A DNA stretch of 64,000 nucleotides from Amia ocellicauda (taxonomy: Eukaryota > Chordata > Actinopteri > Amiiformes > Amiidae), in contig NC_089856.1 of NCBI RefSeq assembly GCF_036373705.1, positions 8,984,501 through 9,048,500 of the forward strand. Direction: 5' to 3'. The notes beneath the pieces were generated by a model that was not told where the DNA came from, searched no databases, and saw only the letters and a list, made by a program, of their open reading frames with translations. Shown here in pieces: positions 11,163-50,157 of the stretch (the stretch's first letter is position 1; every line of letters starts with the position of its first letter). Both the position numbers and the translations under genes were made by a program.

Positions 11163-11733
11163 ATGTCTTGGAGCGACACATTCTTCCCAGATAACCCCAG
11201 ACGCTGAGAGGAGGTGGTGCGCCTGGGTCAGCAGCTGCTCTCCCTCATGGAGCATAACTAACTGCGATATGCTGATCGGCACCATCGGTAGCATCCAGGC
11301 GCAGGTGGTCCAGATTGACAGCCGCTTGAAAGAGAAGCTGGAGCCGGAGATGTATCAGAAACTTTACAGCCTAACTGTGCCTCTTTCTGATCGCATCCAC
11401 ATCGCCAGCAGGGTGCTGAGCGGCGCTTTTGGCATGCTGGGCTCGCGCGCCATGGTTGCCGAGCTCATCCACAAGAGGGCAGTGCTCGGCCGCATCGTGG
11501 CAAGCCTAGGCCGGGTTGGCACCTGCGCGGTGGCCACAGTCGCCCTAGGAGTTTTGGGGCTGGGTGTGGACATGGTCGCTAGTGCCATCCTGGGCGCCAT
11601 AGAAAGAGAGAACCTGGAGAGAGTCATCCAGGAATACAGCGAGGCGCTGGAGGAGTTTAGACCAGCCTCCGAGCAGTATTTGGAGAATATTGGCAATGTC
11701 ATAGCCAGGGTCCAATTCAAACGGGGGCTCTAA
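11163..11733 (+). pseudogene. SMCO3-like sequence, broken single exon
   Basis: The C-terminal 150 or so codons (about 11260-11733) resemble SMCO3, a small coiled-coil protein with one membrane segment: KLEPEMYQKLYSL, then the hydrophobic VATVALGVLGLGVDMVA, then FRPASEQYLENI. The expected N-terminus is in another frame: an ATG at 11163 begins MSWSDTFFPDNPRR, then TGA at 11205-11207, then EEVVRLGQQLLSLMEHN and TAA at 11259-11261. After this the similarity resumes in the next frame, with a stretch of roughly 30-45 residues missing compared with relatives as I remember them. Two stops plus a frame-changing deletion make this a pseudogene, unless translation restarts at the Met near 11270. No intron signals explain the break. 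Confidence 0.65.
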
Positions 11734-13226: not shown

Positions 13227-14447
13227 CACTCACCTAAAGGATTATTAGGAACACCTGTTCAATTTCTCATTAATGCAATTATCTAACCAACCAATCACAT
13301 GGCAGTTGCTTCAATGCATTTAGGGGTGTGGTCCTGGTCAAGACAATCTCCTGAACTCCAAACTGAATATCTGAATGGGAAAGAAAGGTGATTTAAGCAA
13401 TTTTGAGCGTGGCATGGTTGTTGGTGCCAGACGGGCCGGTCTGAGTATTTCACAATCTGCTCAGTTACTGTGATTTTCACGCACAACCATTTCTAGGGTT
13501 TACAAAGAATGGTGTGAAAAGGGAAAAACATCCAGTATGCGGCAGTCCTGTGGGCGAAAATGCCTTGTTGATGCTAGAGGTCAGAGGAGAATGGGCCGAC
13601 TGATTCAAGCTGATAGCAGAGCAACTTTGACTGAAATAACCACTCGTTACAACCGAGGTATGCAGCAAAGCATTTGTGAAGCCACAACACGTACAACCTT
13701 GAGGCGGATGGGCTACAACAGCAGAAGACCCCACCGGGTACCACTCATCTCCACTACAAATAGGAAAAAGAGGCTACAATTTGCACAAGCTCACCAAAAT
13801 TGGACAGTTGAAGACTGGAAAAATGTTGCCTGGTCTGATGAGTCTCGATTTCTGTTGAGACATTCAGATGGTAGAGTCAGAATTTGGCGTAAACGGAATG
13901 AGAACATGGATCCATCATGCCTTGTTACCACTGTGCAGGCTGGTGGTGGTGGTGTAATGGTGTGGGGGATGTTTTCTTGGCACACTTTAAGCCCCTTAGT
14001 GCCAATTGGGCATCGTTTAAATGCCACGGCCTACCTGAGCATTGTTTCTGACCATGTCCATCCCTTTATGACCACCATGTACCCATCCTCTGATGGCTAC
14101 TTCCAGCAGGATAATGCACCATGTCACAAAGGTTGAATCATTTCAAATAGGTTTCTTGAACATGACAATGAGTTCACTGTACTAAACTGGCCCCCACAGT
14201 CACCAGATCTCAACCCAATAGAGCATCTTTGGGATGTGGTGGAACGGGAGCTTCGTGCCCTGGATGTGCATCCCACAAATCTCCATCAACTGCAAGATGT
14301 TATCCTATCAATATGGGCCAACATTTCTAAAGATTGCTTTCAGCACCTTGTTGAATCAATGCCACGTAGAATTAAGGCAGTTCTGAAGGCGAAAGGGGGT
14401 CAAACACAGTATTAGTATGGTGTTCCTAATAATCCTTTAGGTGAGTG
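13227..14447 (+). mobile_element. DD36E Tc1/mariner element, copy 1 (decayed)
   Basis: The terminal inverted repeats are cactcacctaaaggattatt and its inverse, flanked by TA at 13225-13226 and 14448-14449. The element is 1,221 bp, the same length as copy 2 at 30878-32098. It carries one transposase frame (separate entry) with two stops. Confidence 0.93.
13375..14415 (+). pseudogene. DD36E transposase, two nonsense codons
   Basis: This is the full 347-codon frame of a Tc1/mariner transposase, aligned along its length with the intact copy at 31026. Codon 33 is TGA (13471-13473) where the intact copy has GGA, and codon 254 is TGA (14134-14136) where the intact copy has CGA. The first stop falls in the helix-turn-helix region, the second just after the second catalytic Asp. 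No indels are seen. The CGA-to-TGA change is the usual CpG decay. The product is inactive, but the ends look intact and could in principle be moved by a transposase supplied in trans. Confidence 0.92.
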
Positions 14448-16475: not shown

Positions 16476-16902
16476 GGCTCTCTGACCGACAAAGACAGAC
16501 AGACAGACACAGTCAAGAGGAGAGTCGCCACATTGACTCCAGAACCCAAGAATTACAAACGGTTACAAAATCTCTTCAGTCTTAGTAAAAAAAAAAAAAA
16601 GGCTAAGAGGAGTTTTAAAAGCAGCTGATTTATTAAAGAAACAATACCATTAACAGTTTATGATCTTGATATAATAATAATATTAATAATAAACCTACCC
16701 AGTCTAAAGGATTGCACTTTTGCATTTGTAATACCTTTGATAATTCCCAAACTATTTTAACTATTGAATTCCTTACTGTAAGTAAATAATGACAACAATC
16801 ATTACTGTATTAATATAATTCTATAAAATTCTTTATAGTACAAAGTGCTGCTAATCTGAATTACACTATTTTAACTTTATATAAAACATTCATATTATCA
16901 TA

Positions 16903-18449
16903 CAGTGAGGGAAAAAAGTATTTGATCCCCTGCTGATTTTGTATGTTTGCCCACTGACAAAGAAATGATCAGTCTATAATTTTAATGGTAGGTGTATTTT
17001 AACAGTGAGAGACAGAATAACAACAAAAAAATCCAGAAAAACTCATTTCAAAAAAGTTATAAATTGATTTGCATGTTAATGAGGGAAATAAGTATTTGAT
17101 CCCCTATCAATCAGCAAGATTTCTGGCTCCCAGGTGTCTTTTATACAGGTAACGAGCTGAGATTAGGAGCACTCTCTTAAAAGACACCTGTCCACAGAAG
17201 CAATCAATCAGATTCCAAACTCTCCACCATGGCCAAGACCAAAGAGCTGTCCAAGTATGTCAGGGACAAGACTGTAGACCTACACAAGGCTGGAATGGGC
17301 TACAAGACCATCGCCAAGCAGCTTGGTGAAAAGGTGACAACAGTTGGTGCGATTATTCGCAAATGGAAGAAACACAAAATAACTGTTACTCTCCCTTGGT
17401 CTGTGGCTCCATGCAAGATCTCACCTCGTGGAGTTTCAATGATCATGAGAACGGTGAGGAATCAGCCCAGAACTACACGGGAGGATCTTGTTAATGATGT
17501 CAAGGCAGCTGGGACCATAGTCACCAAGAAAATAATTGGTAACACACTATGCCATGAATGACTGAAATCCTGCAGCGCCCGCAAGGTCCCCCTGCTCAAG
17601 AAAGCACATGTACAGGCCCGTCTGAAGTTTGACAATGAACATCTGAATGATTCAGAGGAGAACTGGGTGAAAGTGTTGTGGTCAGATGAGTCCAAAATCG
17701 AGCTCTTTGGCATCAACTCAACTTGTCGTGTTTGGAGGAGGAGGAATGACCCCAAGAACACCATCCCCACCATCAAACATGGAGATGGAAACATTATGCT
17801 TTGGGGGTGTTTTTCTGCTAAGGGGACAGGACAACCGCACCGCATCAAAGGGACGATGGACGGGGCCATGTACCATCAAATCTTGGGTGAGAACCTCCTT
17901 CCCTCAGCCAGGACATTGAAAATGGGTCGTGGATGGGTATTCCAGCATGACAATGACCCAAAACACACAGCCAAGGAAACAAAGGAGTGGCTCAAGAAGA
18001 AGCACATTAAGGTCCTGGAGTGGCCTAGCCAGTCTCCAGACATTAATCCCATAGAAAATCTGTGGAGGGAGCTGAAGGTTCGAGTTGCCAAACGTCAGCC
18101 TCGAAACCTTAATGACTTGAAGAGGATCTGCAAAGAGGAGTGGGACAAAATCCCTCCTGAGATGTGTGCAAACCTGGTGGCCAACTACGAGAAACGTCTG
18201 ACCTCTGTGATTGCCAACAAGGGTTTTGCCACCAAGTACTAAGTCGAAGGGGTCAAATACTTATTTCCCTCATTAACATGCAAATCAATGTATAACTTTT
18301 TTGAAATGTGTTTTTCTGGATTTATGTGTTGTTATTCTGTCTCTCACTGTTAAAATACACCTACCATTAAAATTATAGACTGATCATTTCTTTGTCAGTG
18401 GGCAAACGTACAAAATCAGCAGGGGATCAAATACCTTTTTCCCTCACTG
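16903..18449 (+). mobile_element. DD34E Tc1 element, copy B1
   Basis: The ends are cagtgagggaaaaaagtatt and its inverse, with TA at 16901-16902 and 18450-18451; length is 1,547 bp. Internal direct repeats of the agtatttgatcccct motif near both ends (16917, 17092, 18253 and 18422) give the IR/DR layout known from Sleeping Beauty-like elements. It lies just upstream of the S100 coding exons. Confidence 0.92.
17229..18242 (+). pseudogene. DD34E Tc1 transposase, one nonsense codon
   Basis: This is a 338-codon frame starting MAKTKELSK, with a paired-like DNA-binding region followed by the DDE domain. The catalytic Asp are in LWSDESK and FQHDNDPK and the Glu in NPIENLW, with 34 residues between the second Asp and the Glu. 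A single TGA at 17559-17561 (codon 111) interrupts it; the neighbouring copy B2 has CGG in the aligned LRREGLK stretch. Otherwise there is no indel. Translation from the later Met (17667) would lack the DNA-binding part. Confidence 0.9.
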
Positions 18450-18554
18450 TATATACATGTATCTTAATACGCTATACATATAACAATTGCACCACTGCTT
18501 ATGTCTTCTTCTGCTATATTGCCAGGAGGGCTTGATGTAAAAGGAAGGTCTTAC

Positions 18555-18641: not shown

Positions 18642-18746
18642 CTGCAATACAAACAGTATACAAACAGACAGGTTAATGAGAATAGCATTGTGTGGGCATA
18701 GACCATATCAAAACTTTGAATGAACTGTGAGTTGGTTACAACTATA

Positions 18747-20306
18747 CAGTGAGGGAAAAAAGTATTTGATCCCCTGCTGATTTTGTACGTTTGCCCACTG
18801 ACAAAGAAATGATCAATAATCTATGGTCTATAATTTTAATGGTAGGTGTATTTTAACAGTGAGAGACAGAATAACAACAAAAAAATCCAGGAAAACACAT
18901 TTCAAAAAAGTTATAAATTGATTTGCATGTTAATGAGGGAAATAAGTATTTAACCCCTTTGACTTAGTACTTGGTAGCAAAACCCTTGTTGGCAATCACA
19001 GAGGTCAGACATTTCTTGTAGTTGGACACCAGGTTTGCACACATCTCAGGAGGGATTTTGTCCCATTCCTCTTTGCAGATCCTCTCCAAGTCATTAAGGT
19101 TTCGAGGCTGACGTTTGGCAACTCGAACCTTCAGCTCCCTCCACAGATTTTCTATGGGATTAAGGTCTGGAGACTGGCTAGGCCACTCCAGGACCTTAAT
19201 GTGCTTCTTCTTGAGCCACTCCTTTGTTGCCTTGGCTGTGTGTTTTGGGTTATTGTCATGCTGGAATACCCATCCACGACCCATTTTCAATGCCCTGGCT
19301 GAGGGAAGGAGGTTCTCACCCAAGATTTGACAGTACATGGCCCCGTCCATCGTCCCTTTGATGCGGTGCAGTTGTCCTGTCCCCTTAGCAGAAAAACACC
19401 CCCAAAGCATAATGTTTCCATCTCCATGTTTGACGGTGGGGATGGTGTTCTTGGGGTCATTCCTCCTCCTCCAAACACGGCGAGTTGAGTTGATGCCAAA
19501 GAGCTTGATTTTGGTCTCATCTGACCACAACACTTTCACCCAGTTCTCCTCTGAATCATTCAGATGTTCATTGTCAAACTTCAGACGGGCCTGTACATGT
19601 GCTTTCTTGAGCAGGGGGCCTTGCGGGCGCTGCAGGATTTCAGTCCTTCACGGCGTAGTGTGTTACCAATTGTTTTCTTGGTGACTATGGTCCCAGCTGC
19701 CTTGAGATCATTAACAAGATCCTCCTGTGTAGTTCTGGGCTGATTCCTCACCATTCTCATGATCATCGAAACTCCACGAGGTGAGATTTTGCATGGAGCC
19801 CCAGACCGATGGAGACTGACAGTTATTTTGTGTTTCTTCCATTTGCGAATAATCGCACCAACTGTTGTCACCTTCTCACCAAGCTGCTTGGCGATGGTCT
19901 TGTAGCCCATTCCAGCCTTGTGTAGGTCTACAATCTTGTCCCTGACATCCTTGGACAGCTCTTTGGTCTTGGCCATGGTGGAGAGTTTGGAATCTGATTG
20001 ATTGATTGCTTCTGTGGACAGGTGTCTTTTAAGTGAGTGCTCCTAATTTCAGCTCGTTACCTGTATAAAAGACACCTGGGAGCCAGAAATCTTGCCGATT
20101 GATAGGGGATCAAATACTTATTTCCCTCATTAACATGCAAATCAATTTATAACTTTTTTGAAATGCGTTTTTCTGGATTTTTTTGTTGTTATTCTGTCTC
20201 TCACTGTTAAAATACACCTACCATTAAAATTGTAGACTGATCATTTCTTTGTCAGTGGGCAAACGTACAAAATCAGCAGGGGATCAAATACTTTTTTCCC
20301 TCACTG
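18747..20306 (-). mobile_element. DD34E Tc1 element, copy B2
   Basis: It belongs to the same family as 16903-18449 but is inverted, with TA at 18745-18746 and 20307-20308; length is 1,560 bp. The two copies converge across ~300 bp and so form a long inverted repeat. Confidence 0.92.
18964..19976 (-). pseudogene. DD34E Tc1 transposase, one-base frameshift
   Basis: The frame starts at 19976 ([11 protein letters not shown]) and is open for 131 codons. It then shifts by one base near 19600-19620, where one C is missing from a C run present in copy B1. The remainder continues to TAA at 18964-18966 with [14 protein letters not shown] and NPIENLW, keeping all three DDE residues. Total length 1,013 nt equals 338 codons minus one base, so the shift is the only length change. 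Confidence 0.9.
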
Positions 20307-21489
20307 TATGTACCATTATTAAGAAGTTGTAAAGTGACTTCTGAAAGCAATTCGGCACAGTTGTATAATGGTCAGTATGGCAAAGTCTTATTTTGGCCTC
20401 ACCCCCAAGTGTGTATCGCTACAGAGCGCTTTCCCTTCTCCTAATTTGTCTCATTCAAGCTCTTTCTCCTCTGTCACCCCATAGGGGTGCCATGAGGTCC
20501 CTGTCAACACTGGGTAGGCTAAACACTTTTGATTTGGTGTATATGTAGGACATTGTATTTTAATGATTGTTAAATCGCCTCAGATAAACGTGTCTGGCAA
20601 ATGCATAATAACATATTTTGCCCAGAGACCCACCGACACAGTGATTGACAGGCACCAGAAACCTTGTCTAGTTTGCCTGCATAATATTGGTTGATATGTG
20701 ATTTTTCACTGGTGATATGTGGTTGTGAAGCAAAGGTATGTTTAAATCCAAATCTGCCTGATTCATGGAGATTTAGAGCTATGTTTTTCGACTTCAAAAT
20801 TACTCAGAATCGCGCATTTCAAGTTTCCAATTGTCAAAATCTTCTGGGGGAGGACCCCCAACCCCTGCCCCTGAATTCCTCAATCCTCCATGCTCCATGA
20901 AATGGTATAGACTTCAATCTAATAAGACACGAAATGCTTGAAAGTTTATATTATGTATATCTATATGCCTACAAAAATCTTTAACAAATTTAAATAAAAA
21001 ATGGTCTGAAACCATTGTAATACTAATATTTACATTGTCAAATTAATGTACAAAATATAAGCAACTAGGTATATTACTAATTCAAATAATTGTGTGTGTG
21101 ATGGAAAGGGTAATTTGAAGGTGTGATTCCCCCCCTCTGATGTCTGGACCTTGACTATACCTTGACCAAGAAATTTGGACCCTGACCCAAAATAATTGAC
21201 TACCCCTGACCTAGATTAACCCACAATTTAACAACCCCCCACAGTTGTAGATTGTAGCATATTAACTATAGTACCACCAAATCATTCTATTCCAGTCATT
21301 TGGTGTTGGTCCTGTATATGAAGCCCTTAAATAAACGGGAACTAATCTCCCACATCCTGCTACATATCTGCTGTTATGATATAATTACTGCAATTTAATT
21401 AGGTTTTTGTAACAGATTATATACATCAATAATTGTAACCCTTGTGACTCGCCAGAATATCATTATTTTATTATTATCAACAACAACAA
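20307..21489. other. Intergenic, no gene seen
   Basis: This is AT-rich unique sequence with a small (caa)n run near 21479. A short piece after an acceptor-like ccccatag (20485) has no matching protein family. I see nothing to annotate. Confidence 0.5.
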
Positions 21490-22906: not shown

Positions 22907-24212
22907 TTACATTACATTACATTACATTATTTGTCATTTAGCAGACGCTCTTATCCTGGGCGACTTACATTTGTAACCATTTATACAGCTGGGCATTTTA
23001 CTGGAGCAATCTTAGTGAAGTACCTTGCTCAAGGGTACAACAGCACTAGAGCCCTGCATTTCAGCCCGAGCCTGACGGTCCCGACTTCGGGCTTCGGGCC
23101 AATTTTCACATCATAGTCCACACGCGGGCCGGGCATCGGGCCTGTTTTAGGCTCCTCCTCCTTTTTATATTTTAGACATTAATTAATTAAAAGAAACTAT
23201 GAGAAGTTGATGATGGTAAAACAAACATAGAAAGATGTTATATAATCTATCACACTGACACGCATGACAGTCTGCTCACGCACACAGGTTTCCCACGGAC
23301 AACACGAGAGCATGCTATTGCGCCTGCGCAGACCGGCTCGCATGGTGTTAGTGTCCCCGCCAGCGGCAGCAGCAGCAGCGTGTCTTCAGCGCAGCTGGAG
23401 GAGGACAGAAGAAAGCAGGACTGGATTGAAACCTCCACTGTGGACGCTGTGCTTTTTCTCCACGATGCTCTGTAAGAGACTGTTCTGCCTGTAGCCATGT
23501 TAAGACTAGGAGGCTGTCTTGTTTTTTGTTTGATTGGACTTTATTGTCATTAGTCTAACTGTTGGAAACTATTGGAAATAAGAATGGCCATATTCTGTGG
23601 TGACGCCTTGATTTTTGAGGTAAGATAACCTGCGTGTTTCATTTTATTTGTTTAGATCGTACAGCCCGTTCGTTCGTTTTTCCACACTCCATTGTGAGCA
23701 GCAGAGCAGCCTGGTCAGCTTGTCAAAAATGCCTTTTTACTGTGGTGGTGATAATAAACATTTAAACTAACATTGTGTGATATGCTTCAAGTGTTTTATA
23801 TCTATCGATTTTATTGTAGGCAAATCAAGTGTTGATTTGAGAGGCTAAATTGATCAAACGTGATCAACTCACTGTCGGCCGCTGGCTGCTTGGTCGTCAC
23901 TTTAAAAAACAAAAACTTTAATTTAACAAACAAAAAATGCTCCAAACATTTTTCTAAATTAACTTAATAAAGAAACGAAAAGAAATATAACTACTTTGCC
24001 ATTAAAAACAAAACTGAACTATTTTAATGGCTGCAACAGTAGTATAGGCTGTGTAATGGTAAGAAAAAAAAAAAACACGGGCTCCAGGCGGACTCGGGCC
24101 GATAATTGTGATCAGCTGTCGGACAAGGCCGGGCTGGGGCCTAGATTTGAGGCCCGTGCAGGGCTTTAAACAGCACTGCCCCACCCAGGGTTAGAACTCA
24201 CAACCTTCCAGT
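22907..24212. mobile_element. Fish SINE-like element (split by hAT)
   Basis: It starts with an (acatt)n run, then tttagcagacgctcttatcc and gggcgacttaca, words common to a widespread fish repeat. Its right part, gggttagaactcacaacctt, lies at 24190-24209. The two halves are separated by the hAT element 23048-24169. It interrupts unit 2 of the tandem repeat. Confidence 0.7.
23048..24169. mobile_element. Non-autonomous hAT element, copy 1
   Basis: The ends agagccctgca and tgcagggcttta are inverse, and the 8-bp target duplication acagcact flanks both sides (23040-23047, 24170-24177). The 1,122-bp interior has GC-rich gggcttcgggcc-type subterminal repeats and a segment on the - strand starting MATGRTVSYRASWRK, conserved in copy 2. 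No transposase is seen. Confidence 0.85.
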
Positions 24213-25129
24213 TAAGGCTTCCGAGCTGTATCAGTAGGTTTCAGATTTGAGCAGGCATTTGTAGTTTAAATGCATGTGTTATTACATGTATAATTTTCAA
24301 CTTCAATCCAATGCAGTATACTTTTGAGGTTTCCAATATTTTGTCATTTTAAGTGTGTATTTCAATGTCAGTGGACCATAATACTAATTTCTTGTTTGCA
24401 TGCATCAATTATGTAAGGTACCATTGTATTTTTCACCAGTGGTGACGAAACTAACCACAATCAAGCATAACATTGCCATTTATTATAGTACCAAGTTTTG
24501 TGAGTTTCTGAATTTGGCTTATGTATTTCTTCTGATGTCAAATTTCATATTTTTGAAAATATGCATATTTAACATACGTTCACAGGCATTGGCTTGTGGC
24601 GGCCATGGTTTAGTGTGCACTCACTTGCCTTTTGCAAATTTGATAGATAGCAGTATCTATGTAACATATGCAAAGTTTCAGTACACTGGGCTTTATAGTT
24701 CCGGAGCAGTAGCCATTTTAATATTCGCACACAGACACATGTTAAATGCAATATGGCAGCTTCACCATGTACCACACGAAATTCATTCTCTGGTATTATG
24801 ATCAAGGCATAGGCATGAAGATATTTGCAGAGTTTCATGTGTGTACTGCATTCTAGGGTTGGCTGTGCTACGGGTTTGCTGGCTCCGGCTCCGGAGTGGC
24901 TCCAGAGGTTCAGCTCCAGCTCCAGGCTGGCTCCGGAGCTGATGAAGGCCCCCTGCTCCAGCTCCAGGCTGGCTCCAGCAGCCCCAGCTCCAGCTCCGGT
25001 GCAGCTCCACACTGCAGCTCCAGCTCCTGCAGCTTTTAACCAGCTCCAGCTCCGGAGCCACAAAAAACAGTGCAAACTATGATGCGATCATTATTTATAT
25101 CATTTCCTTTTTTACTTCTTTTATGTAAA

Positions 25130-25597
25130 TAACTGTTTAACAAAACCACGCTGGAGTGGCTTAAAAATAAAAAGGTCAATGTCCTGGAGTGGCCTAGTCA
25201 ATGTCTGGACATCAATCCAATTGAGAATATCTTGAAACATTGCTGTTCACCATAGGTCCCCATCCAACTTGATGGAGCTTGAGCAATTGTGCAAAGAAGA
25301 ATGGGCAAACATTGCTGTGTCCAGATGTGCAAAGCTGGTAGAGACTTATATACATAGACTCATGGCTGTAATTGCTGCCAAAGGTGCCTCTACCAAATAT
25401 TGACTGAAGAGGTTGATTACTTATGCATTCAATTATTGTATGTTTTGTAGTAAAAATGTAGATCATATTTTTCATTTAGACATTATGGACATTTTCGGTG
25501 TTGATCAGTGGCAAAAACTGATAAAATCCATTCTGATTTCATGTTGTAACACAATGACATGTGAAAAAGTCCAAGAGGGGTGAATACTTTTGAGAGC
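25130..25597 (+). pseudogene. Tc1 transposase 3' fragment
   Basis: This contains decayed versions of the Tc1 tail: VLEWPSQ-like near 25182, INPIENI near 25215, then AKGASTKY and TGA near 25404. An A/T-rich 3' end follows, terminating in gaatacttttgagagccact. The 5' two-thirds are missing. It is a different Tc1 family from the two named above. Confidence 0.75.
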
Positions 25598-25599
25598 CA

Positions 25600-27603
25600 C
25601 TGTAAAATCAAGCCACACAGCAATCTCTATAGACAAGCATTGGCAGTAGAATTAACTTTACTGAGAGCTCAATGACTTTCGACGTGGCACCGTCATAGGA
25701 TGCCACCTTTCCAACAAGTCAGTTCGTCAAATTTCTATCCTGCTAGAGCTGCCCTGGTGAGCTGTAAGTGCTGTTATTGTTAAGAGGGAACATCTAGGAA
25801 CAACAACAGCTCAGCCGCCAAGTGGTCGGCCACACAAACTCACAGAATGGGACATTTTTTGTTTGTTAAATTAAAGTTTTTGTTTTTTAAAGTGACGACC
25901 AAGCAGCCAGCGGCCGACAGTGAGTTGATCACGTTTGATCAATTTAGCCTCTCAAATCAACACTTGACTTGCCTACAATAAAATCGATAGATATAAAACA
26001 CTTGAAGCATATCACACAATGTTAGTTTAAATGTTTATTATCACCACCACAGTAAAAAGGCATTTTTGACAAGCTGACCAGGCTGCTCTGCTGCTCACAA
26101 TGGAGTGTGGAAAAACGAACGAACGGGCTGTACGAGCTAAACAAATAAAATGAAACACGCAGGTTATCTTACCTCAAAAAACAAGGCGTCACCACAGAAT
26201 ATGGCCATTCTTATTTCCAATAGTTTCCAACAGTTAGACTAATGACAATAAAGTCCAATCAAACAAAAAACAAGACAGCCTCCTAGTCTTAACATGGCTA
26301 CAGCCAGAAGAACAGTTTCTTACAGAGCATCGTGGAGAAAAAGCACAGCGTCCACAGTGGAGGTTTCAATCCAGTCCTGCTTTCTTCTGTCCTCCTCCAG
26401 CTGCGCTGAAGACACGCTGCTGCTGCTGCCGCTGGCGGGGACACTAACACCATGCGAGCCGGTCTGCGCAGGCGCGGTAGCTCTCGTGTTGTCCGTGGGA
26501 ATCGTGTGTGTGTGTGTGTGTGTGAGCAGACTGTGTCATGTGTGTCAGTGTGATAGGTTATAAAACGTCTTTCTATGTTTGTTTTACCATCATCAACTTC
26601 ACATTGTTTCTTTTAATTAATTAATGTCTAAAATCTAAAACATAAAACAGGCCCGATGCCCGGCCCGCGTGTGAACTATGATGTGAAAATTGGCCCGAAG
26701 CCCGGCCCTAGGGGTGTAAATAAGTCGGGGCCCGTCGGGCTCGGGCTGAAATGCAGGGCTCTAAATGGGACTGTTGAGTGCTGAAGTACATAGTGCATAA
26801 AAATAGTCTTTCGTTAGTTGCAACAATCACTTCCGAGTGCCAGACTGCTTCTGAAAGCAACATCATCAGAAGAACTGTTTGTTGGGAGCTTCATGAAATT
26901 GGTTTCCATGGTCGAGCAGTCGCACAAGCCTAAGATCTCCATGCGCAATGCCAAGTATCGGCTAGAGTGGTGTTAAGCTGGTGGAAATGCGATCTCTGAA
27001 GTGATAAATCACGCTTCACCATCTGGCAGTCCAACAGAGGAATCTGGGTTTGGTGGATGCCAGGAGAATGCTACCTGCATGAATGCATAGACCAACTGTA
27101 AAGTTTGGAGGAGGAATAATGGTCTCAGGGCTCGGCCCCTTTGTCCCACTGAATGGAAATCTTAATGCTACAGCCTACAATGACATTCTAGATGATTTTG
27201 CACTTCCACATTTGTGGTAACAGTTTGGGGAAGGCCCTTGCCTGTTTCAGAATGACAACCCATGCACAAAGTGAGGTCCGTACAGAAACACTTGTCGAGA
27301 TTGGTGTGGAAGAACTTGACTGGCCTACACAGAACCCTGAACTCAACGCCATCCCACCTTTGGGATGAATGGAAAGCCGACTGTGAGCCAGGACTGGTCG
27401 CCCAACATCAGTGCCCGACCTCACTAATGCTCTTGTGGCTGAAATCCCCTCAACAATGTTCCAACATCTAGTGGAAAGCCTTCCCATAAGAGTGGAGGCT
27501 GTTATTGCATCAAAGGGGGGACCAACTCCATATTAATGTCCATGATTTTGGAATGAGATGTTTGATGAGCAGGTGTCCACATATTTTTGGCCATGTAGTG
27601 TAT
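25600..27603 (+). pseudogene. Old Tc1 element, many disruptions, split by hAT
   Basis: Before removing the hAT copy (25854-26763), two halves read as one Tc1 element on the + strand. Remnants include CLFQNDNPC near the second Asp and WPTQNPELNAI near the Glu, then IRVEAVIASKGGPTPY. Stops and frame changes are numerous, and the 3' end has the familiar tttttggccatgtagtgt terminus. Confidence 0.75.
25854..26763. mobile_element. Non-autonomous hAT element, copy 2
   Basis: This is a reverse-orientation copy of 23048-24169, with the 8-bp duplication aatgggac at 25846-25853 and 26764-26771. The right end, tgcagggctcta, is complete. The left end lacks ~230 bp including the terminal repeat, yet starts exactly at the duplication. 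The conserved MATARRTVSYRASW segment is at 26294. Confidence 0.85.
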
Positions 27604-29599: not shown

Positions 29600-30877
29600 G
29601 AAGCCCATCCCTGCCACCATCCCTCCATCCCTCCATCCCTCCATCACTTAGCAACCGCAGGAGAGGAGAGTGCTGGGCTGGTAATCAGATCCGAGGGGCA
29701 GTGAGGGCTGTTAGGGCTTTAAAAAAAACTTAAATCAAGAAGAGTCAATAAACAGCTGGAGACAACAATCGCTAATTACACTGTTTACAGTGAAAAAACA
29801 GAACATGTGGTTTCTATTTATAATTGCTTAATATTAGTTCTATCATTATGGTTTCTTAAAAGTCACTCAACTACTTCCTGCTGTTTCGTTGTGCATTATC
29901 GCTCTGCACTTACATCAAATATAAATCTTATTATTGTAAATGATTTAGTAAAGTAACGGTGAACTTGGGTCAGCCCAGTGTTCTATAAATGTATGAGTTA
30001 TTAAATTTTTGATCTAATGTAATGAGTAGTTGTCCTTTGTGACTATCTTATCATCACAACCTTAAATTTCAAACACATTTATGCAAGTCAGTAGTCATAT
30101 CATTCACGATTAGGGATAGATGTGTTTAGGAATGATTATTTACACAGTGTACACTGTAGTGGTCAGCAACAAGGTGTCGAAGCAATTATATTGGTCCATA
30201 AACGTGACGAAAAATCCTAAACACTGCGTTTTGAAAAGTGTTCTCAATGTGATGCAAAAGTGTAAATTTAACACGTATCAATTATTTATTACAATGTAGG
30301 TTATGCTACATAGATGAAGCTGGACATCTGTATTTCTTCAAATGACGTGAGATTCTGCATTCGATAAATTCATTGAATAATACGTTTATTATGTATTATG
30401 TATCTTCCTATGGCACCATTTCTTACGTGGGTATTTCAGTTGTGGATGATGTCTCAGCACTGTGCCCTACAGTAAGCTGAATTTCTACAGCGCTCTGTGG
30501 AGGAACTCATAGACTAAACATAATTTTATTTTAACTACTAATGAGTCCATTATGATTATATGCATAATGTAAAATTTCAGTGAAAAGGGATTAGAAACTC
30601 CCCAGTGTTTTCTTACTGGATGTGGTACCATAGTGCACTCAGTGATCGGTATAACCGACAAGGTTCTCCATGAGCAGTAACAGCAGAAATATTTATTTTC
30701 CTTGTACTGGACAGCCAGATTATATTGTCACTAATATGCTGCGATATGAATTGTATATTAACGATACAACTATTAATAGTATATGACTATTAGTAGTACT
30801 GTAGGTGTGTATATATACAGTCACCTCCAATATCATTGGTAAAGATGAGATGAGAAAAAAACGCTGTATAAAATATA
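29600..30877. other. Intergenic, no gene seen
   Basis: AT-rich unique sequence. A short tatacagtcacctccaatat piece at 30815 resembles a DNA-transposon end. No supported gene is present. Confidence 0.5.
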
Positions 30878-32098
30878 CACTCACCTAAAGGATTATTAGG
30901 AACACCTGTTCAATTTCTCATTAATGCAATTATCTAACCAACCAATCACATGGCAGTTGCTTCAATGCATTTAGGGGTGTGGTCCTGGTCAAGACAATCT
31001 CCTGAACTCCAAACTGAATGTCTGAATGGGAAAGAAAGGTGATTTAAGCAATTTTGAGCGTGGCATGGTTGTTGGTGCCAGACGGGCCGGTCTGAGTATT
31101 TCACAATCTGCTCAGTTACTGGGATTTTCACGCACAACCATTTCTAGGGTTTACAAAGAATGGTGTGAAAAGGGAAAAACATCCAGTATGCGGCAGTCCT
31201 GTGGGCGAAAATGCCTTGTTGATGCTAGAGGTCAGAGGAGAATGGGCCGACTGATTCAAGCTGATAGAAGAGCAACTTTGACTGAAATAACCACTCGTTA
31301 CAACCGAGGTATGCAGCAAAGCATTTGTGAAGCCACAACACGTACAACCTTGAGGCGGATGGGCTACAACAGCAGAAGACCCCACCGGGTACCACTCATC
31401 TCCACTACAAATAGGAAAAAGAGGCTACAATTTGCACAAGCTCACCAAAATTGGACAGTTGAAGACTGGAAAAATGTTGCCTGGTCTGATGAGTCTCGAT
31501 TTCTGTTGAGACATTCAGATGGTAGAGTCAGAATTTGGCGTAAACAGAATGAGAACATGGATCCATCATGCCTTGTTACCACTGTGCAGGCTGGTGGTGG
31601 TGGTGTAATGGTGTGGGGGATGTTTTCTTGGCACACTTTAGGCCCCTTAGTGCCAATTGGGCATCGTTTAAATGCCACGGCCTACCTTAGCATTGTTTCT
31701 GACCATGTCCATCCCTTTATGACCACCATGTACCCATCCTCTGATGGCTACTTCCAGCAGGATAATGCACCATGTCACAAAGGTCGAATCATTTCAAATT
31801 GGTTTCTTGAACATGACAATGAGTTCACTGTACTAAACTGGCCCACACAGTCACCAGATCTCAACCCAATAGAGCATCTTTGGGATGTGGTGGAACTGGA
31901 GCTTCGTGCCCTGGATGTGCATCCCACAAATCTCCATCAACTGCAAGATGCTATCCTATCAATATGGGCCAACATTTCTAAAGAATGCTTTCAGCACCTT
32001 GTTGAATCAATGCCACGTAGAATTAAGGCAGTTCTGAAGGCGAAAGGGGGTCAAACACAGTATTAGTATGGTGTTCCTAATAATCCTTTAGGTGAGTG
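30878..32098 (+). mobile_element. DD36E Tc1/mariner element, copy 2 (apparently intact)
   Basis: The inverted ends cactcacctaaaggattatt are complete and flanked by TA at 30876-30877 and 32099-32100. At 1,221 bp it is the same length as copy 1. It holds the only uninterrupted transposase of the three copies. The right side adjoins a decayed Tc1 end (32101). Confidence 0.95.
31026..32066 (+). CDS. DD36E (Incomer-type) Tc1/mariner transposase, uninterrupted
   Basis: A 346-residue frame starts ATGGGAAAGAAAGG and ends at TAG 32064-32066. Residues 1-120 hold the two helix-turn-helix parts (SISQSAQLLGFSRTTIS at 24-40) and a basic stretch. The DDE domain has Asp155 in AWSDESRF, Asp246 in FQQDNAPCH and Glu283 in PIEHLWD. 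I count 36 residues between Asp246 and Glu283, so it is DD36E and not the DD34E of ordinary Tc1. This spacing matches the published DD36E/Incomer group of vertebrates. It would cut and paste its own element at TA sites in the nucleus. All three catalytic residues are present and there are no stops, so it could be active. Expression is unknown. Confidence 0.93.
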   Translation: MGKKGDLSNFERGMVVGARRAGLSISQSAQLLGFSRTTISRVYKEWCEKGKTSSMRQSCGRKCLVDARGQRRMGRLIQADRRATLTEITTRYNRGMQQSICEATTRTTLRRMGYNSRRPHRVPLISTTNRKKRLQFAQAHQNWTVEDWKNVAWSDESRFLLRHSDGRVRIWRKQNENMDPSCLVTTVQAGGGGVMVWGMFSWHTLGPLVPIGHRLNATAYLSIVSDHVHPFMTTMYPSSDGYFQQDNAPCHKGRIISNWFLEHDNEFTVLNWPTQSPDLNPIEHLWDVVELELRALDVHPTNLHQLQDAILSIWANISKECFQHLVESMPRRIKAVLKAKGGQTQY

Positions 32099-32100
32099 TA

Positions 32101-32520
32101 TAGTACCTATAGAAAGTCTATAACCTCTTTCTAACGGTCCACCACTTGGACCATTGCCCAAAACTGGTTGTTTTTTCATTTATCTTGACATGCTACTCAA
32201 AAAATTCAAGGGAAAAAAATATTCTAGAAATTTGTAGAAAACTAATTAAAAATCAAAACTGAAATAGCTTGGTTGGATAAGTGTCCACCCCCTTTGCTAA
32301 ATTAGCTCAGGTGTAAGTTAATTTGTCTCCACTGATGTTACATTGTAGGGATTCACATGTCTTCAGGATTAATTCAGCAGTTCCTGTAGATTCCTTCACC
32401 TGGGGAGTGCATTCCAAAGCAAAGACACAATTATGAGCACCAAGGAGCTTTTAAAAGAAATCCAGCAGAAGTATTGGAAAGGGGCAGATCAGGGTATGGA
32501 TATATAAAAAAAAAAAAAAC
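32101..32520 (+). pseudogene. 5' half of a decayed Tc1 element
   Basis: The words aaaaaaatattctag, gaaatagcttggttggataagtgtc and ctcaggtgtaa recur in the relic at 58858-60385. No transposase frame survives. It ends in an A run at 32505-32520. Confidence 0.6.
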
Positions 32521-34841: not shown

Positions 34842-37800
34842 TTAGAGGATTTCACTGGTTGAGCGCAGAACCCTTTCAAGTCCAGAGACGATGTCGGTGT
34901 CTTTAAAGTTTGTGCAGCTCTGCAGGTCTGTGATCTCTCTGCACTGGCAATAGGTGTATTTCTCTCAGCATACTTACACCTGATCCCAGAGCCGATCATG
35001 AAGAGCAGACAGGGCACCAGGGCACAGACAGGCACAACCAACTGCTCATACTCCACCCGCCTGCAGACCAGCCCTGTGGGCACAGACACCACTTTACAAA
35101 TGCTTTTCCCTTTGGCAATACAGTAGTGGTGTGTAATTGACTCAGTAGAAGCATCTCTCTCCACAGCAACTACAGCTGTGTCTACATGCTGGTAAATATG
35201 TCATCACTTTCTTTTAAGGTGTTTATGAATGGTTACAGTTTTTGAATGGTTTTGTTTGTTTTGTAGGAATACAAAAAGGTTTAGCCATCAACCCTGTGTT
35301 CAACCCACGAGAATAACATTTCTGTTCAGCTCAGTGTTTGCCGTGCGGGGTCAGGGTGTCAGTATGGGAGGTCCCTGAGATTTCTGCTGTCCTGGCCTGG
35401 CTGACACCCTGACCCCCGCCACCATCCCAGCCAGTGAGACCAGCCTGCAGGGCCTTACCGCTGTCCAACTCGTAGCTGTCCTCCTCTCTGGAGACGGGGC
35501 TGGAGACCACGCAGGTGTAGCGACCGCAGTCGGTGCCCTGCAGGTCCTGGATGGTGAGGCTGCTCTCATCCTCTGCCTCTCGCAGCACATACTTGGTGCC
35601 GTTGGCAAGAGGGACTCCCACTCTCTCCCAGCTGAACTGCGGCCAGTCCCCGAACACCACGGAGCAGCGCAGCTCCACAGAGGAGTGCTCCACAAAGCCC
35701 AGGATCAGCGGATTAGCCACAGGCTCTGAGGGGAAAGCAGCAGAGGTCCCTTTCAGTCAACTCCAGTCTGTCAGGCAGCGCACCTGCAGGATGTATTGGT
35801 ATATTTCAATTAGCACCTAATTAAGCCCTGTAACAGACCGGTAACTTGACTACATTACTTAACTGAAGTCATTAAAATATTAAGGAATACATTTTTATCA
35901 GAAACCCCTTCAGCCCTCGAGGACTGGAACTGCCAACTGCTTGATTTAGACAAGCGCTAAACAATCCTTATCGTTTCAGATTCAGAGCCTCAATTGGTAT
36001 CTTTTGGCTACTGCGTTAAATCTACACAGACAGGCAGGATGTGAAGTGTTGCTTTTCAATGGAACTGAAGTTTGTAGCTGGTCAATCTGGAAAGCTCTAG
36101 AAGGGAAGTGGTGTGCCTTTATATAGACTTCACTCTTGCTTGTTAAAATTGTTTTTTGTTTTTTTGTGTAATCTGTTTAAATCTGTTGTATATGCAAACA
36201 GAATCTACTCAGAAGGTGATCATATAGGTTTGTTATATTATAATTAAAATAATGTTGAACACAGTACAAGTATACCCCACTTTGCACAAATCCATTACAT
36301 CAATTCATTTTAAAATTAAATTAAACAACACACACCTAGTATAGATAGATGGCACAGATGTTTAAAATGTTGTTATTTAAAATGTTATTATTTTTAAATG
36401 TAATTAAAAAAAATCCAGTGTCAAAAATCAACCAAAAGTGCACTCTTTAACTACAGTTAAGCTAAAATTAAAAAAAAATTAAAATGATAATGGGCCCAAA
36501 ACTAACCAGAAGTGAGAGTTCCAATAGAGACTCTAAAATGAAGCACAAGAGCATCAGTCAGGAGCCAGGAACGTCAGCATATTAAAATAAAAGGGTCAAT
36601 AAATATGGCGAGTTTGATTATTTGTATTATTGTTAATTTATCAAAACACTTCTTATATTATATTATATTAGAATGGAACTCATTTTCACATTCATGAAAC
36701 TGATCCCTATTTATTCATGCAAAAGCGAGGTATACCTACTGTACCTCAGCCAGATTGCTCCATTAAATACTAATATTAAAAACTGTATATTGCTTGTTTA
36801 GGTCTGTTTCTGACACTAGGAGGAGCTGAAAGACTGGCTCATGCATTCTTAACATGGAGATTATATTATTGCATCTAGGTGGGATTAATGCTTTGCACTG
36901 TGGCGTTCCCAATAATCTTCTTATAAGGCCGCAAGAGTACCAGAATGGTGCTGCTCGTAACAAGATCAAAATCTCAAGAAGATGTATTAAAGTTAAACTT
37001 CATTGGTCACCTGTAAAAGTCAGGGTTGGCATTGAGATTGTAATGCTATCCTATTAAGTGCGACTTCTGCTGACCAGGGTCACCGTTCTGTGGAGTTCTG
37101 GGTACTGGAACAACAAGGATCCAGGTGCTATACTAGGGATAACAGGGTCATAATTGGGATACTGACGCAGGATAGACAGGCTGACATTTTTGGTCCTGAC
37201 TGCAGCTCCCTGTACCGTCAGTGTGTAGAGTCCCTGGTCACTGCGTTTTAGGTCTTGGAGGAGGACCGACGTATTGGATGGGAAAAATTGGCTGCGGCCT
37301 CTGTAGTGTGGGTCCACGGTGGGCTCGGCGCTGCTCATGGTGTAATCCACAACGGCTCTGGTGCCTTTGTTACCAGTGAACTGCCAACTCAGACTGGCAC
37401 CCACATCCACATCACTGAAACCCGGCAGCAGCACTGAAGAGCTCAAGGCTTCACACAGCTCCAGGTCCTTGGCCTGTCCAACTGCAGAAGGAATAAAAAC
37501 GGGAAAGAAGAGGGGAGAGGTGACAATAACCGAGGTGACGCAGCTCTCCCTAGTGGCATAGCCATGATTTTGAATGGGGTGGGCGTTAGTTGAACATTTT
37601 AAATGTTAAAAGTACATCATAGTTCAAAGAGGTTAAGAATGCAGACTAGTGCTGGGTATGTGCTAAAGGGAGGGGGCATAGGACTATTTTGTAAACTAAA
37701 ATTGTCAGTTTATTACCGTTTAGATCTGCTTCTAATCAAAGAGAGAAACCTGCAAATCATCTTTAATCAGGTATGGCATACAAACTGATGATATGCAATG

Positions 37801-39023: not shown

Positions 39024-40260
39024 CGCTATTGGGTTGATTTTGTCAATAAATCCACTATAGCAGGTAGGATAATATTCAGTGGTTTAGGGAATGCCAGTGA
39101 TCTCCATGCATGTGATTTCAATTCCTTAATTGGCTTTGGCTAAACTAATAATTGGCCTAATCAGAGCTTTGTAAAGAATTGTAAACCTTTGGAGATGTCA
39201 GATTGAATATAAAAGTATATTAGGTACCCAAATTCTCCAACTTAGTAATTTAAATTTCAGTCAAAAGTCAAATAAATGAATGTATTAGTTTGATTAAGGT
39301 TTTAGTTCATTGAGGGTGAATAAAAACAGCAAGACACTGGGTCCCCAGGTCCAGGATTGGGAACCACTCCATTAGCATGAGGCATTAAAGTAAATAGTTT
39401 CCATTCTTTTCCCATTGAGTTAATGGGTTCTGCTGCACTGGTTAGCTAATGACCACTCTTTTAATTATTTGCTAGATTTGGGCTCAGACATGGTGTGTTA
39501 TTGAGCCTTGACTCAAAAGATGGGACAGTGACACTTGTTAAGTTACAAAATAGTAGTAGTAGCAGTAGTAGTAGTATTACAATATTAATTTCTGGTCATT
39601 AGTCAAGTTGTTTCCTTCCTATAAAGGAGATTAAAGGTCAACTGAACAGTATTGCCTTAAAAAATGAAAATAAGAATCAACACTATTTTCTTATTTTTAT
39701 TAATATAGCTTACAGAGTATAACTATAGAATTTACAACAAAGTATAACTAAAACAAAATAATAAATAACAATAACAAAAAATAATAATTAAAATTAAAAC
39801 ATGCTAAAATTACTAAAAATAATTTAGATTCAATTAGATTAAAAAAGCAATCATTTAATTAAAGGCCACTCTATAAAGATAAATCTATAATCTGTATTTA
39901 AAAAAACTCAGTTTAGACTAAATCTCTGGTTGAATGAGGTAGTAGGTTCCAGAATCATGGTGTATAAAAACAGAAATCGTCTATCCCTTCCTTTCGTGAT
40001 TCACCCACTTATTTTTTCTCTGTTCAACATTAGTGTTAAAATGAGGAGGGGGGGGCTTTTAAACAGTTGACCCTGGACAAGAAAAGAAGCTCAAATGCAT
40101 ATTTTATCTGATTTCAACACCTGAACTGAGTCGCTGTGACATGAACAAGTTTACAACAAGTGGACAAGTGCTTCATTTCCTGGTTCAAAGGGGAATTTGT
40201 CGTACAGTGGTGTATTTTGTGATTTTCTCATAATCGCATGTAGGAACAAAAAGTGGAAAT
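39024..40260. other. Intergenic, no gene seen
   Basis: AT-rich sequence with a (tag)n run at 39550 and a g run at 40047. No gene or clear element is seen apart from the MITE end near 39360. Confidence 0.45.
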
Positions 40261-40293
40261 GTGAATGAAACTTTCTGGTGGGTAAAGGAAAAG

Positions 40294-40690
40294 GATGTTG
40301 GAAAAAATATTAGACAGAAAATAGAGCAGCATCATAATGAAAACCATATTCTTAGAGATAGTCAACATGGGTTTAGACGAGGCAGATCATGTCTTACTAA
40401 TCTATTAGAGTTCTTTGAACATGCAACTGCAGCTGTAGATCACATGAAAGCACATGATATGATATACTTAGATTTTCAAAAAGCTTTTGATAAGGTTCCA
40501 CACCAAAGACTGATCCCCCAATTGGAAGCTGTAGGCATTCAGGGTGATGTAATTAGATGGATTTTGAACTGGTTGATGTATAGGAAACAGAGGGTGTCGA
40601 TTAGAGGAGTTGCTTCTAATTGGAGTGAGGTTGTTAGTGGAGATCCACAGGGATCTATGAGTCTACGTGGACTCCTCACTTTCTCCATCC
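40294..40690 (+). pseudogene. LINE reverse-transcriptase fragment
   Basis: The frame holds RT motifs of a non-LTR retrotransposon: SQHGFRRGRSCLTNLLEFF, then MIYLDFQKAFDKVPHQRL, then VIRWILNWLMYRKQRVSIRG and SGDPQGS. The FxDD active-site motif that should follow is missing, as are the endonuclease and the tail. By eye the clade is CR1/Jockey-like. It is a truncated insertion. Confidence 0.85.
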
Positions 40691-41072
40691 AAACAATGTG
40701 CGGTTATGATCACAGTACGAAGGGCAAGCAGGTGCAGGGCTGGACAAGCAAGACAAACCTTTTGGCCTTCACCTAGGCCTACCTCTGCCATGGCATCTTT
40801 TGCTTTCATTGCACATGCTGCTGGGTCCCACGGGTGACAACAACTTACCACTAATTACAAAGTACCGCGAAGTGGGATCTATGTATTACCTCAAATTAAG
40901 CACATAATAGCACAAATTAACCACTAAGTATCCAAATTAATTAAAGCACAATAAAGTAGCTCAGTTTACTACAAAGTATCACAAATGTGTATTCAGTTTG
41001 TGGTAATTAGCTTTTGTGGGTATTTTGTGATTTAAGTAGCATCCCCCATTTCGCATTACCTTTGTGCAAATA

Positions 41073-41382
41073 CACCGATCAGCCATAACATTATGACCAC
41101 CTGCCTAATATTGTGTAGGTCCCCCTTTTGCCGCCAAAACAGCCCTGATCCATCGAGGTATGGACTCCACTAGACCTCTGAAGGTATGCTGTGGTATCTG
41201 GCACCAAGACGTTAGCAGCAGATCCTTTAAGTCCTGTAAGTTGCGAGGTGGGGCCTCCATGGATCGGACTTGTTTGTCCAGCACATCCCACAGATGCTCG
41301 ATTGGATTGAGATCCGGGGAATTTGGAGGCCAAGTCAACACCTTGAACTCATGATTCATCAGACCAGGCCACCAGGTCTTTG
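41073..41382 (-). pseudogene. Tc1 element end with internal deletion
   Basis: The end accgatcagccataacattatgaccac after TA (41071-41072) is a known Tc1-type terminus. On the - strand the frame from 41359 to 41105 reads the transposase tail: [18 protein letters not shown], then AVLAAKGGPTQY and a stop. Beyond 41350 the sequence jumps to catcagaccaggccac, which is the antisense of the WSDE region. So the middle of the transposase was deleted. Confidence 0.8.
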
Positions 41383-44241: not shown

Positions 44242-47200
44242 ATGGCAGGGGTGCTTCGAGTGCTGCTCAATGTTGCGGAGAAAGCGGCCAACATTGCCCG
44301 TGTCTGCAGACAGGAGGCAACGCTGTTCAAGCTGCTGGTCCAGGAGAAAACCGGGTCTGACAAGAACAAGAAATTCGTTCAGGACTTCAAGACGCTGGCC
44401 GATGTGGTCATACAGGAGATGATCAGACATGACGTGGGGAGAGAGGTCAGGGGTCACACCGGGGGGGGCTGGGGGTCACTCTTAAAATAATTCACTGTAT
44501 TTGTAAGCCTGGCAGGTGATAAGTTGTGATGGCATAATTGACTCCACCAACTTAGTTAAGTGAACTAATAAGATACTTTGTTAAGGGTCTTATATCTCTT
44601 TAGTAAGGCATCACTTTACCTCACTAACTGCAATGCGATCTATCCACATAGCATAACACACCCACTCACTCAGGTCCTGAGTAGCAAGGAAACGCCTAAC
44701 TACCAAACACCACGCATGATATTTTAAACAAACGTATCAAGATAACCCTAGTGGGTCTAGCCTGGAGTGTCTGTAGTTTTGTTCTGTTCACCCCAAGCAA
44801 CGTAATCTGCAGTATTTAGCCCATTTCTGAGACTTGGTAATCTATTATACTTGATTTGTATAAGCTAGGGTGTACTGCACATGTTTTACAGAAATCTAGA
44901 TTGTTACCAAGCAAATTAACATATATAATGAAGGTAGAAAATTCAAACATGTTTTAAATTAGGAAATGTAATTTTGTTGTTGTGGCTTTTTTAATTCTAT
45001 TTTTGCTTTTTAGTTCCCAGAGCTGGTGGGCTTCATCAGAGGAGAGGAGTCCAACAAGTTTGAGAATGGACTGGGTGAGCCTGTGTTGTGTCAGGAATGT
45101 AGAATACACCAGGAATCTTGTTCTGTTTCCTTAATTAACCTGGTTATTTTATCAATTGGTCTCATATAACATTGTTTATGCCTCAAAATGTCCTTTTGAT
45201 TCGGCACACACTGCCTGTAACATAATTTGCACGCAAGAGAGAAGCACACATTTCCTCCAGTTAATCAGCTAATCAGACTGATTCAGTTACTAGGACTGGG
45301 AGAAAAGCCAAAAAACACTAAGCCCCCCCAGAAAATTAGTTTCCTCACAACAGCTTCCAACAGTTATTATCTGTAACGGAACTTGCTGTCTGGAGAGAAG
45401 TATTGAATTCCTCCAGATCAGGAGCTAATCAGACCGATTCAGGGACTAGGGGCCGGGAAGGGAGTAGAGCTAGATGACACTGTGGCCCTGTCCAATAACA
45501 GTGTTAAAAACCACTGCTTTAAAATGAGCCTGCTGAGTGGTGCTGTGCTGTCCATCTCCCACCCCAGGGGACAGCGTGACTGTGCGGGTGTGCAGCACAC
45601 AGGAGGAGACGGCCGCCCTGCTCAGCGCCGTGCTGAACGGTAACAAGATGGCCGCCTCATTGTTGGCCCAGGCCATCCACCAGGACCTGCAGGTCACTGA
45701 CCCTGTCGGTGCCGCTCTGCAGCTGCCCCTGAGCCCCGACAGCCTGGGCATCTGGATTGACCCCATCGGTAGGCCGCCATGCTTCACACTGGGTCCTCCA
45801 GGGCCCTCCGACATTCACTGGACTTGAGCTTTATTTTGGTTGTCGGTTGAAATAATTCTTCACTTCACTGGGCTGACTTCCCCCCTTTGTCTAGGTCAAA
45901 GGCAGGTGATGGTTTAAGGAGGCCTAGAGACGCTTGCTGGATTGTGTTCCTCTGGGACTGGAGCAGTGGTTCCCAGCCCTGGTCCTGCAGGACTGTCCTG
46001 ACTGGTTTGTCATTCCAGGCCCAGTTTGTCAGCTACTTGACCTAAACCACCTCCATCTTGTTTAAGGGCTGAACACAACTGACTGGGTTGGAGTGTGACC
46101 ATAAGGAATCCAGGTCAGGGTTCAATTAAGAGCTCAGTTGGAACAACAAACAGACACAGGGAGTCCATCTGGAAACCACTGCTCTAGATCAACAGCTGGT
46201 CAGCCCAGGTCCCAGAGAGGCACAGTCCAGTGGGTCCAGTGTCTATTTATAATGACTTGGACTCTTTGGTCTTGGCCATGGTGGAGAGTTTGGAATCTGA
46301 TTGATTGATTGCTTCTGTGGACAGGTGTCTTTTAAGAGAGTGCTCCTAATCTCAGCTGGTTACCTGTATAAAAGACACCTGGGAGCCAGAAATCTTGCTG
46401 ATTGATAGGGAATCAAATACTTATTTCCCTCATTAACATGCAAATCAATTTATAACTTTTTTGAAATGTGTTTTTCTGGATTTTTGAGTTGTTATTCTGT
46501 CTCTCACTGTTAAAATATACCTACCATTAAAATTATAGACTGATAATTTCTTTGTCAGTGGGCAAACATACAAAATCAGCAGGGGATCAAATACGTTTTT
46601 CCCTCACTGTATAAAACAAAGTGGATTAGGTGTGGAGAGGTGGGGAGCTCTCCAGGCCCAGGGTTGCAGACCTCAGTTCTACCCCAGTTAGAGAGGACAT
46701 CAAATTTCTTAACCTGAGGTAAACAGGATGAATCAGGAATTACTGACCCCAGACCATTCTGTGTTGTCCAGATGCCACCAGTCAATACGTGGAGGGACGA
46801 CAGGATGTGGAGGCCAATAATGGAATGTACCCAGGGGGGTTACAGTGTTCCCTGGTCCTAATCGGAGTCTACCTGAGGGCCAACGGAGAGCCCATCATGG
46901 GAGTGATCAACCAGCCCTTCGCACACCGAGATCCAGGGGGGAAGGGGTAAGGATATTAGGACTCCCAACACCAGACACTACAAACCCGAGGCGCCTTTCT
47001 TGCTGAACCAGTATTTTATTAATCTTAGAATCTTAGTATGCCCTTTCCCAGGGGATCAGTTTCAGCCATGTGGCTGGGTAGTTTTGCATACTATTTAGAG
47101 AAAAAACATGCATTTGCAAGTCCAGCATAGTGATTTAAAGGTTTTGAGATTACGTTTGAGGAGGGGGGAGGAAGTTATAGAATTTGGCATTTTCATTATT

Positions 47201-48937: not shown

Positions 48938-50157
48938 CACTCACCTAAAGGATTATTAGGAACACCATACTAATACTGTGTTTGACCCCCTTTCACCTTC
49001 AGAACTGCCTTAATTCTACGTGGCATTGATTCAACAAGGTGCTGAAAGCATTCTTTAGAAATGTTGGCCCATATTGATAGGATAGCATCTTGCAGTTGAT
49101 GGAGATTTGTGGGATGCACATCCAGGGCACGAAGCTCCCGTTCCACCACATCCCAAAGATGCTCTATTGGGTTGAGATCTGGTGACTGTGGGGGCCAGTT
49201 TAGTACAGTGAACTCATTGTCATGTTCAAGAAACCAATTTGAAATGATTCGACCTTTGTGACATGGTGCATTATCCTGCTGGAAGTAGCCATCAGAGGAT
49301 GGGTACATGTGGTCATAAAGGGATGGACATGGTCAGAAACAATGCTCAGGTAGGCCGTGGAATTTATACGATGCCCAATTGGCACTAAGGGGCCTAAAGT
49401 GTGCCAAGAAAACATCCCCCACACCATTACACCACCACCAGCAGCCTGCACAGTGGTAACAAGGCATGATGGATCCATGTTCTCATTCTGTTTACGCCAA
49501 ATTCTGACTCTACCATCTGAATGTCTCAACAGAAATCGAGACTCATCAGACCAGGCAACATTTTTCCAGTCTTCAACTGTCCAATTTTGGTGAGCTTGTG
49601 CAAATTGTAGCCTCTTTTTCCTATTTGTAGTGGAGATGAGTGGTACCCGGTGGGGTCTTCTGCTGTTGTAGCCCATCTGCCTCATGGTTGTACGTGTTGT
49701 GGCTTCACAAATGCTTTGCTGCATACCTCGGTTGTAACGAGTGGTTATTTCAGTCAAAGTTGCTCTTCTATCAGCTTGAATCAGTCGGCCCATTCTCCTC
49801 TGACCTCTAGCATCAACAAGGCATTTTCGCCCACAGGACTGCCGCATACTGGATGTTTTTCCCTTTTCACACCATTCTTTGTAAACCCTAGAAATGGTTG
49901 TGCGTGAAAATCCCAGTAACTGAGCAGATTGTGAAATACTCAGACCGGCCCGTCTGGCACCAACAACCATGCCACACTCAAAATTGCTTAAATCACCTTT
50001 CTTTCCCATTCAGACATTCAGTTTGGAGTTCAGGAGATTGTCTTGACCAGGACCACACCCCTAAATGCATTGAAGCAACTGCCATGTGATTGGTCGGTTA
50101 GATAATTGCATTAAAGAGAAATTGAACAGGTGTTCCTAATAATCCTTTAGGTGAGTG
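48938..50157 (-). mobile_element. DD36E Tc1/mariner element, copy 3
   Basis: The ends match copies 1 and 2, with TA at 48936-48937 and 50158-50159. The length is 1,220 bp, one base shorter than the others, as expected from its single-base deletion. It lies in the INPP1-PAN2 spacer. Confidence 0.93.
48970..50009 (-). pseudogene. DD36E transposase, one-base frameshift
   Basis: The frame opens at 50009 (MGKKGDLSNFECG) and stays aligned with the intact copy until near 49310. There a single base is lost (accaccatg became accacatg on the coding strand), just before the second catalytic Asp. The second part resumes in the other frame, with FQQDNAPCH and PIEHLWDVVE, to TAG at 48970-48972. Length 1,040 nt equals 347 codons minus one base. 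No stops occur before the shift. Confidence 0.93.

Follow-up and report, generated by a model that had tools for sequence, protein, structure and literature searches.

The element at positions 30878–32098, referred to here as copy B, is best explained as an autonomous-looking cut-and-paste transposon of the DD36E/Incomer type and one of thousands of near-identical copies from a recent burst, a reading given a probability of roughly 0.85. It lies in a window of 64,000 nucleotides (the whole stretch of DNA that was analysed) on contig C7 of an assembly searched over 988,188,214 bases. The host is probably a ray-finned fish, judging by the size of the genome, its Tc1 content and the hosts published for the family. 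The DD36E population to which it belongs is very large and very young, and is of a kind already known.

Copy B is a Tc1/mariner element of 1,221 bp on the forward strand, with both ends and the reading frame complete. A repeat search of the window detected a perfect inverted pair of 33 bp (30874–30906 with 32070–32102), whose four outermost bases read TATA at either end; the element proper therefore spans 30878–32098 and its ends measure 29 bp. The 29-bp end was matched six times in the window, counting both strands, and not once in 100 shuffles. As these matches are the two ends of three elements, a chance origin of the ends was ruled out (0 expected). The three elements, and the parts of copy B, are as follows.

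30878..32098, + strand: putative full-length DD36E/Incomer-type transposon, copy B (inverted ends, flanking TA, thousands of near-identical genome copies)
30876..30877, no strand: left TA target-site duplication (sequence)
32099..32100, no strand: right TA target-site duplication (sequence)
30878..30906, + strand: 5' terminal inverted repeat, 29 bp (repeat search and shuffles)
32070..32098, - strand: 3' terminal inverted repeat, 29 bp (repeat search and shuffles)
31026..32066, + strand: transposase frame, 346 aa (open reading frame, Pfam)
31488-31490, 31761-31763 and 31872-31874: catalytic codons of copy B for D155, D246 and E283
13227..14447, + strand: second full-length copy (copy A), with two in-frame stops
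48938..50157, - strand: third full-length copy (copy C), with a one-base deletion that shifts the frame

Complete inverted ends, a TA duplication, a 346-residue transposase free of stops and all three catalytic residues had been claimed in the original prediction, and each was recovered at the positions listed, the 29-bp ends being perfect and the 346-aa frame containing 0 stops. The catalytic residues are separated by 90 residues (D155 to D246) and 36 residues (D246 to E283). Pfam matches, all above cut-off, were obtained for HTH_23 (residues 11–47), HTH_Tnp_Tc3_2 (residues 71–142) and DDE_3, the first two representing two N-terminal helix-turn-helix motifs. Residues 60–63 read GRKC at the place of the GRPR-like motif, and a basic stretch, NRKKR, was recognized by eye. 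The nearest solved structure by sequence was the catalytic domain of Sleeping Beauty SB100X (chain 5cr4, E=2.1e-44); a structure model of the transposase had a mean pLDDT of 43, too poor to add to the helix-turn-helix assignment. By analogy with what is known of Tc1/mariner elements, the N-terminal helix-turn-helix domains of the transposase would attach it to the 29-bp ends, the D155/D246/E283 centre would cut the element out, and the element would then be joined to a TA, which would be duplicated.

Copy number was estimated from exact matches to the element ends. The 34-bp 5' end was present 14,257 times in the genome (7,199 + 7,058) and the 45-bp 3' end 13,546 times (6,752 + 6,794), with 0 matches for the reversed-pattern controls of either. 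A protein search yielded 85,325 first-look candidates, and a 346-aa frame without a stop was found in 116 of the 117 places scored. The first 60 of the 116 scored places other than copy B formed a protein-chosen sample, selected by likeness to the query protein, in which only four distinct proteins occurred and one commonest protein accounted for 56 of 60. Ten of these copies were identical across all 1,221 bp. The exact 5' end was present in 47 of 60, the exact 3' end in 48, both ends in 38 and a TA at each side in 56. Two members of this sample, L012 (C23:24741182-24742219) and L014 (C9:15181209-15182246), showed 31 and 34 differences, respectively, because the 5' end is missing; they were counted within the 60 and dropped only from a list of 58 copies. 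Both have an intact 346-aa frame and could encode transposase, judging by that frame, but without a 5' inverted end they would be unable to move by themselves.

A second sample, not chosen by protein, comprised the first 60 listed exact 5' ends, all on contig C1 at 1.14–2.99 Mb. Fifty of these copies were full length and differed from the commonest bases by 2–13 substitutions (median 8), with an exact 3' end in 41 of the 50 and TA on both sides in 44. In 14 of 60 the 346-aa frame was still open from its usual start and retained the catalytic triad, the ten partial places having been left untranslated and scored as not intact; most copies in this sample are thus broken. Twelve of the 60 were complete in all tested respects, combining this frame with exact 5' and 3' ends and a TA at either side. 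Scaling this fraction by 14,257 gives, as a crude estimate drawn from one region and requiring an exact 5' end, a few thousand complete copies genome-wide. The sampled region (L069–L128, C1:1138978-2990080) holds 60 exact 5' ends in about 1.85 Mb, a higher density than the genome mean of one per ~69 kb. The original prediction had described copy B as an intact member of a young family and had proposed that copies be compared for identity, with many diverged copies as the adverse outcome. The copies were many but nearly identical, and the description of copy B held for its open frame and perfect ends as well as for its near-identical relatives in the genome.

These comparisons also bear on the age and mode of the burst. 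Singleton variants in frame in the second sample comprised 147 non-synonymous changes, 48 synonymous changes and 11 stops, close to the neutral expectation (0.694, 0.261 and 0.045, respectively). This indicates that inserted copies drift freely. The assumed rate of change was 2–4 x 10^-9 changes per site per year, a general value and not one specific to this host. At this rate, 8 substitutions in 1,221 bp correspond to about 1.6–3.3 million years, while copies without change would be younger than about 0.6–1.2 million years. With a median of eight substitutions per copy in the second sample, a good part of the burst belongs to the past. Recent activity of the DD36E element is well supported by the sequence comparisons, and copy B itself probably moved recently.

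Three bases of copy B, at element positions 811, 968 and 1020, depart from the commonest sequence. Only two of these changes, P274T and R291L, alter the commonest protein, so the change at position 811 is silent. A 67-mer carrying both coding changes occurred at two places in the genome, copy B and a copy on contig C20 (L129). The latter has all three copy B changes and three of its own, including a premature stop two residues short of the end, and is framed by TA. Among 114 elements aligned, the three changes were common to copy B and L129 only; sharing of the triple by recurrent mutation would be expected about 0.0001 times, and the flanks of the two copies showed no similarity. This indicates that an element with these changes moved at least once. 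Copy B had no change of its own relative to those common to L129. The R291L change alone was found at 29 places in the genome, and was considered as the mark of an active 29-copy lineage; this was dropped, since recurrent mutation predicts about 24 such places (P=0.16).

Copy B is not identical in protein to the copies that dominate the sample, and the presence of P274T and R291L means that its open frame does not by itself amount to a working transposase. One alternative, which has appreciable weight but falls short of an even chance, is that copy B is recently dead or was moved passively: its frame would still be open simply because little time has passed since insertion, and either the variant would be inactive, with copy B and L129 moved in trans, or the whole family would have stopped. 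Both coding changes lie in the catalytic half and are common to only one other copy, and the substitutions of the second sample fit neutral decay, as this alternative would predict. However, the commonest protein recurs unaltered in many copies, of which ten are identical along their full length, and this makes a complete stop long ago unlikely. In addition, an alignment placed a serine at the P274 position in Sleeping Beauty and in the DD34E copies of the window, indicating that this position tolerates change. On the reading of copy B as an autonomous-looking transposon of a recent burst, it is a credible candidate for mobility, albeit with two residues absent from the commonest protein, and the P274T/R291L copy may possibly owe its movement to transposase supplied by other copies. 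A stronger version, in which a naturally active DD36E element, complete in a few thousand copies, has been caught in mid-burst and the P274T/R291L variant is itself an active second-generation source, appears unlikely and is put forward only tentatively. If such an active burst were true, the genome would let host containment of a transposon invasion be studied in nature while the invasion is under way.

Family membership was assessed against published descriptions of Incomer and against DD34E/Tc1 elements. Passages of Sang et al. 2019 (PMC6875036) describe Incomer elements, found mainly in ray-finned fish, as about 1.2 kb in length, with a protein of about 346 aa, ends of 22–32 bp, a TA target and a spacing of 36; its table 1 gives 1169–1229 bp and ends of 24–32 bp for intact fish copies, and intact copies are recorded in 33 fish species. 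Copy B resembles these elements in its length of 1,221 bp, its single 346-aa frame, its perfect 29-bp ends, its spacing of 36 with a TA duplication, and its two N-terminal helix-turn-helix motifs. It differs in reading GRKC where a GRPR-like motif is described, the same passages attributing GRPR to most members of the family but not to all. The 14,257 exact 5' ends also exceed the highest Incomer copy number in those passages, 5,418 in Esox lucius for hits >1,000 bp at >90 % identity, although the counting methods differ. The size of the element and of its protein, its terminal repeats, its TA target and its spacing together place copy B putatively in the DD36E/Incomer type.

Copy B shares domain order and the TA target with DD34E/Tc1 elements, both Sleeping Beauty and the copies in the window. 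However, the stretch from the second Asp to the Glu comprises 36 intervening residues in copy B and 34 in each of the two DD34E frames found in the window, which bears out the spacing on which the original prediction had set copy B apart from these copies. In the alignment, the two extra residues of copy B lie within this stretch, and there is a further two-residue gap soon after the Glu. The spacing alone could arise twice, and a lineage derived from DD34E that acquired its two extra residues on its own, without Incomer descent, would also suit the GRKC reading of the GRPR-like motif. This origin is improbable, because length, protein size, ends, target site and spacing all fall within the ranges for intact fish copies given in the passages of PMC6875036, and because the copy B protein is only 29–35 % identical to the window DD34E copies, where the ends measure ~204 bp and not 29 bp. 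Parts of two further papers (PMC7731502, PMC9777934) treat Incomer as an established family close to DD34E, and in the second of these it seems to fall within DD34E/Tc1 by phylogeny; on that account the border between DD36E and DD34E is a matter of naming. No relatives were found in bacterial/archaeal and viral collections with the patterns used, and the terminal inverted repeat and peptide strings of copy B had no match in literature text.

According to passages of PMC6875036, naturally active vertebrate DNA transposons are few, and the activity of Incomer was inferred by the authors without demonstration. Such transposons are used to deliver genes and offer insight into horizontal transfer. 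Whether the family works, and how its host responds, could be tested directly in a genome that carries identical DD36E copies in such large numbers. As a case of a family already described, the element is sizeable but unexceptional, and it leaves knowledge of that family unchanged.

That the copies multiplied through segmental or assembly duplication instead of transposition is very improbable: 30 local flank matches among the 114 elements, such as that between L105 and L106, would agree with it, but these matches range from 74.9 to 100 %, with 100 % only for L105/L106 and a 43-bp piece of L030/L122, the remainder look like common older repeats, copy B and L129 have no common flank, flanks are unrelated around most copies, and the ends adjoin ATATATA-like bases, with TA framing most copies. 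L105 and L106 (C1:2237284-2240632) are arranged head to head, about 150 bp apart.

At the insertion site, the joined flanks of copy B gave 18 matches in the assembly, two of them the occupied site and 16 diverged relatives at 75–84 % identity; this joined-flank search of the assembly detected no near-identical empty site. The left flank (30818–30877) forms part of a dispersed repeat of greater age (CAGTCACCTCCAA...), of which diverged relatives occur on several contigs (with L130, L131). One relative, on contig C1, spans the insertion point without the element (67 of 87 columns identical). As only about 23 bases of it match past the junction, it lends modest support only to a clean insertion at TA.

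Within the window, copies A and C, which the original prediction had not mentioned, were each 99.0 % identical to copy B and 98.5 % identical to one another, and TA was present on both sides of all three. Three copies in the window were not remarkable as a cluster (0.92 expected, P=0.07). Older, diverged relatives are dispersed through the window. Decayed Tc1-like transposase pieces were located at 41108-41356 (-), 27107-27533 (+), 27-137 (+), 25113-25400 (+) and 59569-59889 (+); those at 41108-41356 and 27-137 matched the DD36E protein at 55–56 % identity and may have been left by related families of greater age. Two DD34E Tc1 elements (16899-18453, +; 18743-20310, -) lie in opposite orientation about 290 bp apart, are 96 % identical and have ends of ~204 bp, and the fragment at 46255-46612 is a third, fragmentary relative of them. 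A long inverted repeat (23047-23939 with 25853-26763) showed 92.5 % identity over 926 columns. A reverse-transcriptase fragment at 40234-40773 (+; RVT_1, E=7.6e-13) is likely a retrotransposon relic. Pieces of host genes were matched by Pfam at four places.

11086-11730, + strand: DUF4533, host gene piece (Pfam)
35334-35756, - strand: Ig I-set, host gene piece (Pfam)
37057-37605, - strand: Ig V-set, host gene piece (Pfam)
47358-47897, + strand: inositol monophosphatase family, host gene piece (Pfam)

Copy B lies outside all four of these matches.
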